Shown here: positions 30,005-33,694 of the stretch, piece after piece
Layout: the number at the start of each line of letters is the position of its first letter
Numbering within the stretch: position 1 is the stretch's first letter
From: Oscillospiraceae bacterium
GTDB lineage: Bacteria; Bacillota; Clostridia; Oscillospirales; SIG530
Assembly (NCBI GenBank): GCA_015067075.1
Contig: SVND01000027.1
Coordinates: 1 to 34,891, forward strand
Direction: 5' to 3'
Length of the DNA stretch: 34,891 bases
Made by a program: the position numbers and the translations under genes
The notes under the pieces: generated by a model
What the model was told of the DNA's origin: nothing
What the model saw: the letters and a program-made list of their open reading frames with translations, nothing else
Database searches by the model: none

Positions 30005-30061
30005 TTGACAATCAAAAAAAACCGTGCTATAATCAAAAAAACACCTGCAAATGTTGCAGGT
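30005..30061 (+). promoter_or_regulatory. Perfect-consensus promoter and leader palindrome of the MBL-crp operon
   Basis: TTGACA (30005-30010), 17 bp, TATAAT (30028-30033). About 10 bp further starts the perfect palindrome ACCTGCAA-ATG-TTGCAGGT (30043-30061), covering the expected first bases of the transcript. It may be a repressor site or an RNA hairpin. It is not followed by a T-run. Confidence 0.8.
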
Positions 30062-30074
30062 ATCGGGTGATATT

Positions 30075-30851
30075 ATGAAAATTACAGCTTTGATGGAAAA
30101 CACTTCTTCTCATCCACGCTTTAAAAGCGAGCACGGTCTTTCTCTTTATATTGAAGCATCATCGCATCGCATTCTTTTTGATATGGGACAAAGCGAAGCT
30201 TTTGCCGATAACGCAAAAGAACTCGGTATTGACTTAACCGATGTTGATATTGCTATCCTTTCCCACGGTCATTACGACCACGGCGGAGGTCTTGCTCATT
30301 TTTTAAAGGTAAATCAAAAAAGCAAAGTCTACATCAACAAAAACGCTTTTTTACCGCATTATAATGGCTCAAATAAATATATCGGTCTTGACGTTGCTTT
30401 ACGAAGCAGCGACAGAATTGTTTTCACCGACGATTCATATATTATCGACGAAAACATATCACTTTTCACCTGCAACGAAAAGCCGCGCAAGCACTCCTTT
30501 GGCAGCTTCGGATTAACGGAAAAGGTCGGCGACGATTTCATTGAAGACGATTTTCGCCACGAGCAGTATCTTTTAATAACGGAAAATGAAAAGCGTATAC
30601 TTTTCAGCGGCTGTTCTCATAAAGGCATCATTGATATTACCGATTGGTTTAAGCCAACGGCGCTCATAGGCGGCTTCCACTTTTCAAAAATTCCTCTCGG
30701 CTCTTCCCTTTTAAACGCTGCGAAAATACTCGAACGCTTTGACACGGAATATTTTACTTGTCATTGCACGGGAAAGGAACAGTTTGATTTTATGAAGCAA
30801 TATATAAGCAAGCTTCATTATCTGTCTTGCGGAGAAGTAATAACGATTTAA
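30075..30851 (+). CDS. MBL-fold metallohydrolase (COG1237 type)
   Basis: A 258-residue metallo-beta-lactamase-fold protein. SHGHYDHGGG gives the metal ligands H64, H66, D68 and H69. LFSGCSHKGIIDI near 180-190 and the C-terminal FTCHCTGKE are typical of the COG1237 group related to archaeal methanopterin-precursor synthases. The bacterial function is not established. The ATG at 30075 is set by GGTGAT three bases upstream, which matches the 3' side of the anti-SD pairing region. It is first of two genes with a Crp/Fnr regulator 14 bp downstream. Confidence 0.88.
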   Translation: MKITALMENTSSHPRFKSEHGLSLYIEASSHRILFDMGQSEAFADNAKELGIDLTDVDIAILSHGHYDHGGGLAHFLKVNQKSKVYINKNAFLPHYNGSNKYIGLDVALRSSDRIVFTDDSYIIDENISLFTCNEKPRKHSFGSFGLTEKVGDDFIEDDFRHEQYLLITENEKRILFSGCSHKGIIDITDWFKPTALIGGFHFSKIPLGSSLLNAAKILERFDTEYFTCHCTGKEQFDFMKQYISKLHYLSCGEVITI

Positions 30852-30865
30852 TTTCAGGAGTTAAT

Positions 30866-31543
30866 ATGGACAACAAAGAAAAAATCGAGCTTTTTGAAAA
30901 AACATTTCCCTTTTGGGATAAAATGAGCGAGGACGATAAAGCGACCTTTATTCGCTCGTCAAGCAACGTATATTTTAAAAAAGGCACGAATATTCACAAC
31001 GGCGACAACTGTACGGGCGTAATTCTCGTTAAAACAGGCGCTTTACGGCTCTATCTTCTTTCAGATGAAGGAAAGGAAATAACGCTTTACCGACTGTTCC
31101 CCGGTGATATGTGTATCATGTCTGCATCATGCGTTCTCAGCACCATAACCTTCGACGTTTTCGTTGACTCCGAGGAAAACAGCGAATGCTTCGTTGTGGG
31201 CGGATGCGCTTATGAGGATCTTGCAAACCGTATGCCCGAAGCTAAAATATTCGCACTTGAAACTGCCGTAAGCCGCTTTTCCGACGTTATGTGGGTCATG
31301 CAGCAAATTCTGTTTATGAGCACCGATAAGCGTCTTGCCATTTTCCTGCTGGATGAAACGGCTAAAACAGGCTCCGATACTGTAAAATTAACTCACGAGC
31401 AGATCGCAAAATACATGGGCTCTGCTCGTGAGGTCGTTTCCCGAATGCTGAAATATTTTGCATCCGAGGGAATATTGACTTCATCCCGTAGCGAGGGAAT
31501 CAAAATACTTGACAAGAAAAAGCTTCGCCAATTAGCTCTCTAA
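30866..31543 (+). CDS. Crp/Fnr-family transcriptional regulator
   Basis: A 225-residue regulator. The cyclic-nucleotide-binding-like sensor domain is about residues 10-120 (GVILVKTGALRLYLLSDEGK, LFPGDMCIMSASCVL). The C-terminal winged helix has LTHEQIAKYMGSAREVVSRM near 175-195. Several cysteines (CIMSASC, ECFVVGGC) lie in the sensor, but not in the Fnr [4Fe-4S] arrangement; redox or thiol sensing is possible. The usual cAMP-binding residues are not evident. The ATG follows CAGGAG by five bases. Its last 12 bp overlap the end of trxA on the other strand. It likely controls neighbours through GTGA/TCAC half-sites. Confidence 0.9.
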   Translation: MDNKEKIELFEKTFPFWDKMSEDDKATFIRSSSNVYFKKGTNIHNGDNCTGVILVKTGALRLYLLSDEGKEITLYRLFPGDMCIMSASCVLSTITFDVFVDSEENSECFVVGGCAYEDLANRMPEAKIFALETAVSRFSDVMWVMQQILFMSTDKRLAIFLLDETAKTGSDTVKLTHEQIAKYMGSAREVVSRMLKYFASEGILTSSRSEGIKILDKKKLRQLAL

Positions 31544-31840
31544 CATTGCAAGTATTTGTGCTTTAGGTCTTGCGCCTACTGCCTTGTTTACGATTTTTCC
31601 ATCCTTGAGCACCACGAGAAGCGGTATGCTGAATACACCAAACTTTTCTGCAAGCTCCGGCTCATCGTCCACGTTTATCTTTCCAACGAGTACGTCGTCA
31701 CGCTCCTCGGAGATCTCGTCAACTATGGGCGATACCATGCGGCAAGGACCGCACCAATCGGCGTAAAAATCAAGCAAAACGAGCTTTTCACTTTTCTCAA
31801 CGGATTCAAAATTATTTTTATTAACACTTAATACTGACAT
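31532..31840 (-). CDS. trxA: Thioredoxin
   Basis: A 102-residue thioredoxin, the cytosolic dithiol donor to reductases and repair enzymes. FYADWCGPCRMVSP gives the redox pair C30 and C33. DEPELAEKFGVFSIPLLVVLKDGK contains the cis-proline. Length is standard. AAGGAGA precedes the ATG. It is monocistronic, running into the tail of the Crp/Fnr gene. Its promoter has a good -10 but a poor -35, with a palindrome at the class II activator position, so it is probably activator-dependent. Confidence 0.97.
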   Translation of the reverse strand: MSVLSVNKNNFESVEKSEKLVLLDFYADWCGPCRMVSPIVDEISEERDDVLVGKINVDDEPELAEKFGVFSIPLLVVLKDGKIVNKAVGARPKAQILAMLES

Positions 31841-31873
31841 TTTATTTATCTCCTTTTCTTTAGGTTTGTCTGT

Positions 31874-31914
31874 ATTCTACCATATTTTTTGCTCTGATTC
31901 CGTGATTTAGTCAC
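31874..31914 (-). promoter_or_regulatory. trxA promoter with Crp/Fnr-like palindrome
   Basis: On the minus strand the -10 is TAGAAT (31874-31879) and no good -35 exists. GTGA-N5-TCAC (31902-31914) is centred at 31908, about 41 bp from the start site predicted near 31867. A one-base narrower centre than the classic CRP site is a caveat. Confidence 0.5.
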
Positions 31915-31969: not shown

Positions 31970-31998
31970 TTGCAAATATTTCATATTTGTTGTATAAT
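31970..31998 (+). promoter_or_regulatory. Promoter of hisI-cysK-dtxR-sdr
   Basis: TTGCAA (31970-31975), 17 bp, TATAAT (31993-31998), about 40 bp before hisI. GGAGG (32025-32029) is the hisI ribosome site. Confidence 0.75.
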
Positions 31999-32037: not shown

Positions 32038-32355
32038 ATGATCGATAAAATTTTCAACGGCCGTGAGCTTGTCCCCGCCATCGTACAGGATTCCGATACA
32101 AACGAGGTTCTTATGCTTGCTTACATGAATCGTGAAAGCTATTCCCTCACCCTTAAAACCGGCACGGCGTGGTTTTTCAGCAGAAGCCGCCAAAAGCTTT
32201 GGAACAAAGGCGAAACAAGCGGCAACTTTCTTTACATCAACGATATAGCAACGGATTGCGACTACGACACCATCCTTTTGAGAGTTACCCCAAAAGGTCC
32301 TGCCTGTCACACGGGAAGCCGCTCTTGCTTTTTCAATAAAATAACAAAAGCTTGA
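32038..32355 (+). CDS. hisI: Phosphoribosyl-AMP cyclohydrolase
   Basis: A 105-residue metal-dependent enzyme that opens the purine ring of PR-AMP, third step of histidine synthesis. [27 protein letters not shown] and [10 protein letters not shown] supply the Mg- and Zn-binding Asp and Cys residues. It is only the HisI part; no HisE domain is fused. GGAGG is eight bases upstream. No other his gene is nearby; the gene instead heads an operon with cysK (19 bp gap) and a DtxR-type regulator, so it is either a displaced pathway gene or used outside histidine synthesis. Confidence 0.95.
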
Positions 32356-32374
32356 TTGATCGGAGGAAAACAAA

Positions 32375-33307
32375 TTGGTATATAATAACGTTTTAGAAGC
32401 TATAGGACACACTCCTATGATCCGTCTCAATAAAATATGCGAGCCAGATTGCGCAGAAATTCTTGTTAAATACGAGGGCGTAAATATCGGCGGCTCGATC
32501 AAGACAAGAACTGCCATGAATATGCTTGCTGAGGCTCGCCGCCGCGGCGATATCAATGAAAACACTATTATTGTTGAGCCTACAAGCGGAAATCAAGGTA
32601 TCGGTCTTTCCCTCGTCGGCGCCGTTATGGGCTACAAGGTGCGTATTATCATGCCCGACTCCGTCAGCGAGGAGCGCAGATTGCTCGTCAAGGCGTATGG
32701 CGCGGAGGTCCATCTCGTCCACGATGCAGGCGATATCGGCAAATGCATTGAAGAGTGCTTGCAGACTGCACTTGATATGGCAAAAGCCGACCCGAACGTA
32801 TACGTTCCTCAGCAGTTTACAAACCCCGATAATCCTTTTGTACATAAGTATCACACGGGCTTGGAGATCCTTGAGCAGGTCGGCGGTCCCATCGACGGCT
32901 TTTGTTCAGGCGTTGGCACAGGAGGTACTCTTTCAGGCATCGGCGAAACGCTTAAAAACCAATATCCCGATATAAAAATTTGGGCTGTTGAACCCGAAAA
33001 CGCCGCGATCCTCTCAGGCGGCAGTATCGGCACGCATCTTCAGATGGGTATCGGAGACGGACTTATCCCCGACAACCTTAATACTGAAATTTATGAGCAT
33101 ATTTGCATAATCAGCGACGCTGAAGCCATTGAAACAGCTCGCAAGCTTGCACGGCTTGAAGGTCTTATGTGCGGCATTTCCAGCGGTACAAACGTCGCCG
33201 CCGCCATTCGCCTTGCAAGAGTTTTGGGCAAAGGCAAGCGCGTTGTAACAGTGCTCCCCGACACAGGCGAGCGTTATTTCAGCACCGAGCTTTTTGAGCG
33301 CATATAA
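32375..33307 (+). CDS. cysK: Cysteine synthase family PLP enzyme
   Basis: A 310-residue fold-type-II PLP enzyme, expected to make cysteine from O-acetylserine (or a related ester) and sulfide. The PLP lysine is K43 in NIGGSIKTRTA, where classic enzymes have NPxGSVKDR. The substrate loop is PTSGNQGIG (71-74) in place of TSGNTG. The phosphate-binding GVGTGGTLSG lies near 175-184. PDTGERYFST closes the protein. The start is TTG at 32375 with GGAGG eight bases upstream. Motif changes leave room for a different acyl donor such as O-phosphoserine. Confidence 0.92.
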   Translation: MVYNNVLEAIGHTPMIRLNKICEPDCAEILVKYEGVNIGGSIKTRTAMNMLAEARRRGDINENTIIVEPTSGNQGIGLSLVGAVMGYKVRIIMPDSVSEERRLLVKAYGAEVHLVHDAGDIGKCIEECLQTALDMAKADPNVYVPQQFTNPDNPFVHKYHTGLEILEQVGGPIDGFCSGVGTGGTLSGIGETLKNQYPDIKIWAVEPENAAILSGGSIGTHLQMGIGDGLIPDNLNTEIYEHICIISDAEAIETARKLARLEGLMCGISSGTNVAAAIRLARVLGKGKRVVTVLPDTGERYFSTELFERI

Positions 33308-33334
33308 CAAATATAAACGATTGGAGCTTTTATA

Positions 33335-33694
33335 ATGAATGAATCAGGCGAAATGTATTTAGAGACCATATTCATTCTTCTTCAGCGCAAAGAGGAAGGT
33401 CTGCACGCCATTGATATCGTAAATCATACAGGCTACAGCAAACCGAGTATCAGCCGTGCAATGGGCATTTTAAAGCGTGACGGCATGATAGATATCGACG
33501 ATCACGATCATATCACCTTAACTGAAAAAGGTAAAAAGATCGCATGCCGCATTTACGAGCGGCACAGCATTATTACCCGTTTTTTGTGTTCTATCGGTGT
33601 AGATGATGAAACTGCAGATGCAGATGCATGCAAGATCGAACACATTATAAGTGATGCCTCCGTTGAAAAGATAAAGGAGTTTTTATCAAAATGA
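33335..33694 (+). CDS. DtxR/MntR-family metal-dependent repressor, short form
   Basis: A 119-residue repressor. A winged helix occupies residues 1-65 (KPSISRAMGILKRDG recognition helix), with a dimer and metal domain after it. There is no C-terminal SH3-like or FeoA domain. Candidate ligands are M7, E10, H77, C99, E102 and H103. The Met and Cys at positions 7 and 99 correspond to the iron-type DtxR set (M10, C102, E105, H106) and not to the Asp and Glu of manganese-type MntR. Iron sensing is inferred. It is 27 bp after cysK, and its stop overlaps the next ATG (ATGA). Confidence 0.92.
   Translation: MNESGEMYLETIFILLQRKEEGLHAIDIVNHTGYSKPSISRAMGILKRDGMIDIDDHDHITLTEKGKKIACRIYERHSIITRFLCSIGVDDETADADACKIEHIISDASVEKIKEFLSK

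Follow-up and report, generated by a model that had tools for sequence, protein, structure and literature searches.

A probable Crp/Fnr operator of odd spacing at thioredoxin promoters of Clostridia, and its cysteine-containing neighbour

Class II CRP-dependent promoters have their activator site near -41 and a poor -35, and the operator of FNR is TTGAT-N4-ATCAA. HcpR1 and HcpR2, like the regulator discussed here, belong to the Crp/Fnr proteins and govern stress regulons in anaerobes, but their main target is hcp, and their operators, as given in excerpts of PMC1274295, are evenly spaced (wTGTGAnnnnnnTCACAw in Desulfovibrio, TTGACnnnnGTCAA and GTAACnnnnGTTAC). The same excerpts name residues 180, 181 and 185 of CRP as DNA contacts and give position 181 (CRP numbering) of HcpR2 as mostly Pro, with Ser or Gln in a few species. 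CooA binds heme through Cys75 and His77 (numbers as quoted in excerpts of PMC6955866). According to that excerpted text, PgRsp of Porphyromonas gingivalis binds heme, affects oxidative-stress genes and was modelled on PDB entry 3DV8, likewise the best match of our regulator; no operator for PgRsp is given there. For the 3DV8 protein itself (EUBREC_1222), we found no published regulon or operator, its literature mention being its use as a template.

On the side of the target, the thioredoxin genes of Clostridioides difficile offer a likeness in being induced by oxygen stress and a difference in that their reported control is through promoters of sigma-B, sigma-A and sigma-G; the main text of PMC10880999, from which both statements come, does not contain crp or fnr. 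Among the matches listed, titles and abstracts yielded no Crp/Fnr protein in control of clostridial trx or desulfoferrodoxin genes. The 13-bp operator described below, written as letters, was not found in the open-licence literature, and PMC8457756 contains no occurrence of crp, fnr, thioredoxin or gtga.

The locus studied here lies in a stretch of 34,891 nucleotides from an Oscillospiraceae bacterium, which was analysed as a whole and is called the window. Its relevant features are the following:

30051 to 30851, plus strand: gene of an MBL-fold hydrolase, with 14 bp between its end and the regulator gene
30866 to 31543, plus strand: Crp/Fnr-family regulator of 225 aa, convergent with trxA (Pfam, PDB 3dv8, residue alignment)
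31532 to 31840, minus strand: trxA, thioredoxin of 102 aa with a WCGPC active site (PF00085, 1.1e-27; TIGR01068)
31850 to 31854, minus strand: Shine-Dalgarno sequence AGGAG of trxA, from the sequence
31867, minus strand: inferred transcription start of trxA, an A preceded by C, 7 bases past the -10
31874 to 31882, minus strand: extended -10 of trxA, TGG-TAGAAT (hexamer 31874 to 31879), starting 35 bases from the palindrome start
31898 to 31900, minus strand: kept GAA in the -35 region (alignment columns 14 to 16), asymmetric to the palindrome
31902 to 31914, minus strand: putative operator, 13-bp palindrome GTGAC-TAA-ATCAC, centre 31908, at -41 from the predicted start
31970 to 31998, plus strand: TTGCAA-17-TATAAT, a promoter-like element of the divergent hisI that lies outside the conserved unit

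Read on the minus strand towards trxA, the palindrome GTGACTAAATCAC (31902-31914) is followed by ggaatcagagcaaaaaata, TGG and TAGAAT. A sequence-only reading of the window had placed a GTGA-N5-TCAC palindrome about 41 bp before the predicted start of trxA, together with a TAGAAT -10 and no -35. Coordinates and geometry prove correct, with the centre at -41 from the predicted start at 31867, and the hexamer is present. It belongs, however, to a -10 of the extended type (TGG), and a kept GAA sits in the -35 region; thus, the absence of a -35 holds only in part. TrxA scores 113.2 bits against TIGR01068 (cut-off 96.8). The 3′ ends of the regulator gene and trxA overlap by 12 bp (31532-31543), and their transcripts should therefore be antisense at their 3′ ends; close or overlapping tails of the two genes are also seen in relatives. 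The MBL-fold hydrolase gene is probably co-transcribed with the regulator. An MBL-fold match upstream of the regulator occurs in 5 of the best 80 of 386 loci, within about 50 bp in three of them (L064, L069 and L090) and at about 500 bp in two (L098 and L116). Divergent from trxA, the plus strand at positions 32038-33694 carries hisI on its own (phosphoribosyl-AMP cyclohydrolase), then a cysteine synthase-like gene and one for a DtxR/MntR-like regulator.

Within the window alone, the palindrome is only mildly unusual: GTGA-N5-TCAC occurs twice, the shuffle mean is 0.25, and two matches were reached in 5 of 100 shuffles. The other match, at position 2142, also has the form GTGAY-N3-RTCAC and was set aside, as it falls inside an open frame of 461 codons. 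By eye, positions 1800-1975 of the window show two perfect hairpins followed by T-rich stretches, with a G run at about 1869, a terminator-like arrangement. The classic CRP operator gave 11 matches in the window with up to two mismatches against 12.2 expected from shuffles, and there is therefore no CRP signal. In the scan of the organism's own genome that had been proposed earlier, GTGA-N5-TCAC occurs 27 times against 3 for the pattern read backwards, but with two sites in the window and 27 in the genome, the palindrome alone is not convincing. Of the full arrangement, GTGA-N5-TCAC-nGAA-N16..20-TAnnnT, the 2.26 Mb contain two exact copies, one at trxA and one at C14:679. A stricter architecture (Y-N3-R, fixed spacing, up to two mismatches) returned 24 rows, of which the trxA palindrome accounts for two (one per strand) and a ccdA promoter for one (C67:29470-29510). 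The open frames at these two places reach at most 55 codons, while the remaining 21 rows, C14:679 included, lie in stop-free frames of at least 200 codons; the ccdA site is thus the sole intergenic match besides trxA. A further GTGAY-N3-RTCAC site, C41:36533, was discarded for falling within a long open frame. The genome also contains six near-identical 41-base copies, all on separate contigs (C23:6002, C24:308, C47:14172, C51:23694, C52:604 and C73:14203). Each is part of a frame that runs for 398 to 655 codons without a stop, and several of these frames begin like a signal peptide, which suggests a multi-copy gene family, probably of exported proteins.

What carries the case is conservation among relatives. 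Relatives of the regulator came from one contig scan (the best 80 of 386 confirmed loci) and from a second sample of 117 genomes including the window's own, 43 of them with the regulator. Together they provided 86 trxA upstream regions of up to 220 bases each: 68 from the best 80 of 386 loci, 17 from 29 further loci drawn from the 117-genome sample, and the window. The spacing is N5 in 80 of the 86, N6 in one and N3 in two. Regions without an exact N5 site are L021 (N6, with the -10 arrangement unchanged), L074 and L110 (one mismatch), L038 (a half-site plus GAA), L108 (no site at all) and L023, which ends at a contig end. Leaving out two duplicates and the contig-end region gives 83 distinct upstreams, of which 78 carry GTGA-N5-TCAC, whereas in 200 rounds of shuffling the count averaged 0.11 and never exceeded 2; the five others comprise two one-mismatch sites, one N6, one half-site and one without any site.

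The promoter is kept along with the palindrome. In 73 of the 78 distinct trxA promoters, the first base of a TAnnnT comes exactly 35 bases after that of the palindrome, whereas the ATG may follow the palindrome centre at anything from 63 to 174 bases. Because of this fixed -10 and the 78 of 83 upstreams with a site, we regard N5 as a property of the family. The sequence-only reading had remarked on the departure from the classic N6 or N4, and this departure now appears as a family rule, with the consensus GTGAY-N3-RTCAC. In the motif-anchored alignment, the eight GTGA/TCAC bases reach 2.0 bits by construction. Beyond them, the GAA in columns 14-16 stands out (G 2.00, A 1.61 and A 1.54 bits), as do the T, A, A and T of the -10 at columns 35, 36, 38 and 40 (1.51-1.73 bits), while columns 17-25 (0-0.44 bits) and 26-34 (0.29-0.77 bits) are poorly conserved. 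The GAA has no mirror copy on the other side and is therefore part of the promoter rather than of the palindrome; by its position, it would be a degenerate -35 at 17-base spacing. Column 47 is a purine (A/G) in 92% and column 46 a pyrimidine (C/T) in 89% of the 80 aligned promoters, duplicates included, which suggests a start at this place and hence a centre at -41. With a site at about -41 from this predicted start, a usable -10 and a poor -35, the arrangement is that of a class II promoter.

The same geometry recurs upstream of the regulator. GTGA-N5-TCAC lies within 260 bases upstream of it in 24 of the best 80 of 386 loci, and at 22 of these 24 sites, the best -10 within the range 15 to 70, with at least 5 of 6 positions matching, sits at +35, facing the divergent gene and away from the regulator. 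The GA lies towards the promoter in 20 of the 24 and never towards the regulator. Together with the trxA promoters, these sites agree with the class II activator arrangement that had been proposed. In one genome pair (L275 and L276), the regulator and a divergent OsmC gene are separated by a stretch with two adjacent sites, which points to possible autoregulation.

Site and regulator also travel together. A convergent trxA accompanies the regulator in 68 of the best 80 of 386 loci, and of the 12 loci without it, two end at a contig end within 1 kb. Regulator, trxA and site all occur at locus L107, for example. The strict architecture matches in 34 of the 43 genomes with the regulator against 3 of the 74 without (Fisher 9e-18, phylogeny ignored); of these three exceptions, one genome is 60% complete, and another has its site at about 400 bases from the end of a contig. 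Class-wide, among 393 genomes, the match occurs in 57 of 106 with and 10 of 287 without the regulator (Fisher 9e-29, phylogeny ignored). Against this stand 21 of the 66 class genomes with a strong regulator match (E<=1e-60) that have no strict architecture match. The regulator loci of nine of them are covered by one set of seven (about 3.6 kb each, none with GTGA-N5-TCAC) and one of five, with three genomes shared: eight have no GTGA-N5-TCAC in the stretch and one has such a site without the -10 spacing. L286 to L289 have no site with N4 to N6, and L290 has one site without the -10 spacing. By eye, several regulators of these genomes resemble the 3dv8 sequence around Cys83-Cys89; the closest 3dv8 homologues may thus use other sites or act on targets located elsewhere.

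The regulator has the sensory domain and helix-turn-helix of the Crp/Fnr superfamily, a cNMP_binding-like domain plus HTH_Crp (PF13545, 61.2 bits, cut-off 27; PF00325, 35.4, cut-off 21; PF00027, 29, cut-off 27.5). Its best solved sequence relative is PDB 3dv8 of Eubacterium rectale (4.3e-59), which is also the best Foldseek match (6.5e-22, TM 0.54 over both domains). An AlphaFold2 model of the regulator has a mean pLDDT of 82.1, a pTM of 0.59 and pLDDT values below 50 at residues 87-95. In a residue alignment of 110 rows, two duplicate pairs included, Cys49 and Cys89 are kept in all 110 rows and Cys83 in 109, which bears out the earlier description of a cysteine-containing Crp/Fnr regulator. 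The recognition helix (A187-R188-E189-V-V-S-R193) has the R-E...R pattern of CRP, with R188 and E189 kept in all rows and R193 in 109 of 110. We take these three to be the positions of R180, E181 and R185 in CRP, which would fit GTGA half-sites. No other protein of the window genome (95.9% complete) passes the HTH_Crp_2 cut-off, and one weaker match lies below it. A distant member of about 24% identity (L279) still has the Cys-x5-Cys and four N5 sites within 6 kb, two of which immediately precede a thioredoxin match and the regulator, respectively. Synteny, co-occurrence, helix residues and the lack of a second Crp/Fnr protein above the cut-off all favour the neighbour as the likely regulator of trxA, in line with the original suggestion.

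By the membership tests applied, this protein is outside CRP, FNR, HcpR and CooA. It shares with E. coli CRP the fold, the helix-turn-helix, the GTGA half-sites and the recognition helix, yet it differs in an N5 site with a 13-bp core and an odd centre at -41.0, in the conserved Cys-x5-Cys of its sensory domain and in redox targets. The equivalog model of the CRP (cAMP) subfamily in NCBIfam gives 38.4 bits (cut-off 266), and N6, the spacing of the CRP operator TGTGA-N6-TCACA, is the exception noted above; the FNR subfamily model gives 32.1 (cut-off 228), and the putative operator here has the form GTGA-N5-TCAC. Assignment to HcpR2, going by the excerpted description, needs GTAACnnnnGTTAC and Pro, Ser or Gln at position 181, where the regulator has GTGAY-N3-RTCAC and the invariant Glu189. 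CooA is its second-best PDB sequence match (1ft9, 1.5e-10), but in our own reading of the alignment, Ile84 and Ser86 stand opposite the ligands Cys75 and His77.

The predicted targets fit a redox function. Over all collected loci, a non-random sample since some were chosen for having the pattern, the architecture scan found 162 sites, with trxA (assigned by match to the TrxA of the window) as first downstream gene in 80. Next come NapH-like 4Fe-4S membrane proteins (21, preceded by a small ferredoxin gene in all four examined), desulfoferrodoxin (16), thioredoxin reductase (9), rhodanese/CoA-disulfide-reductase-like proteins (7), ferritin (5), CcdA (4), and rubrerythrin, short-chain dehydrogenase and PepSY-domain proteins (2 each). 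Ten are singletons; rubredoxin, peroxiredoxin and ferredoxin are among them, and several of the rest look like chance sites. Four sites have no open frame. Groups were formed by BLAST, with Pfam run on one member per named group (for CcdA, the copy of the window genome). Loci from 30 of the 67 matching genomes among more distant Clostridia give 33 rows, and trxA follows in 8 of these; rhodanese, CoA-disulfide-reductase-like, CcdA, glutaredoxin, OsmC, rubredoxin and ferredoxin genes also occur, as does the regulator itself in one genome pair, and a few rows (N4, N17 and N32) are without such a gene. In the window genome, the site at C67:29470-29510 (GTGACTTAGTTAC) has two mismatches, a perfect TATAAT and the spacing seen at trxA. 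It precedes ccdA and a redoxin gene, an operon that is probably under the regulator as well. The target genes and the three conserved cysteines support the redox control of thioredoxin that had been put forward, with the signal itself as the more conjectural part.

Taken together, the palindrome is probably the operator where the neighbouring cysteine-rich regulator activates thioredoxin and other oxidative-stress genes. That the regulator binds here, that it acts positively and what it senses, we infer from sequence. A dimer of the convergent regulator would bind the 13-bp GTGAY-N3-RTCAC centred at -41, overlap the poor -35 (nGAA) and, as a class II activator, recruit RNA polymerase at the extended trxA -10. 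Cys49, Cys83 and Cys89 of the sensory domain would probably sense thiol/disulfide, oxidant or related reactive-sulfur stress, and control would cover trxA and probably ccdA-redoxin in the window genome, and a wider oxidative-stress set in relatives. We hold this combination of operator, class II activation, cysteine sensing, ccdA-redoxin and a wider set in relatives to be highly probable.

The alternatives differ in how much of this they touch. Chance has a vanishingly small probability: the 27 sites in the genome speak for it, but conservation in 78 of 83 trxA upstreams, against a shuffle maximum of 2, refutes it. A role of the palindrome for the divergent hisI, or for a different regulator, is very improbable. 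It does lie in the trxA-hisI intergenic region, yet the 109 other regulator loci searched contain no hisI match, for which hisI was rejected as a target, the site stays with trxA, and no second Crp/Fnr protein of the genome exceeds the cut-off. A repressor is a more serious but still unlikely reading, in which the protein covers the -35 region, leaves the DNA on oxidation and thus derepresses trxA. The overlap with the -35 region suits this reading, the sign is not fixed by sequence alone, and a fixed -41 site could serve a repressor. Repressor sites, however, usually vary in position, and the base-pair-exact placement at trxA and at the divergent promoters, along with poor -35 hexamers and kept -10 elements, fits activation.

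The activator reading has its own variant in a CooA- or PgRsp-like heme or gas sensor whose cysteines bind a cofactor, which we consider doubtful although the likeliest of these alternatives. The CooA match, the use of 3DV8 as a model for heme-binding PgRsp and the alignment of the Cys83-x5-Cys89 segment with the part of CooA that contains its heme ligands all speak for it; against it are the Ile84 and Ser86 found opposite the CooA ligands. Given the kept cysteines, the CooA-aligned segment and the PgRsp likeness, a thiol switch is favoured as the most likely sensor, and the cofactor is a live rival.

The observation is real and larger than first reported, comprising a conserved promoter rule and a predicted regulon. 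Its best reading is a redox-stress regulon of Clostridia under a Crp/Fnr protein that would act as a class II activator from a 13-bp operator of odd length. With somewhat less confidence, we consider it likely that this is a widespread, undescribed regulon of the class, in which a Crp/Fnr lineage with Cys-x5-Cys and Cys49 uses GTGAY-N3-RTCAC at exactly -41 to activate redox targets (thioredoxin, superoxide reductase, ferritin, rubrerythrin, CcdA, rhodanese/CoA-disulfide-reductase-like proteins and ferredoxin), possibly as a disulfide or sulfane-sulfur sensor. It may be a case of sulfane-sulfur or general disulfide sensing in strict anaerobes, and it would extend to family members as remote as L279, with their cysteines and N5 sites kept. 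In strictly anaerobic gut Clostridia, the sensing of oxygen and thiol stress is known mainly through PerR and sigma-B of C. difficile. The present finding names a regulator and its likely operator, gives a rule for the promoters and lists targets, all open to direct test in many gut commensals, and it suggests what the protein of the structural-genomics entry 3DV8 is likely to do. To our knowledge, an operator spacing one base shorter would be unusual among Crp/Fnr proteins, and it bears on the placement of the two DNA-reading heads.
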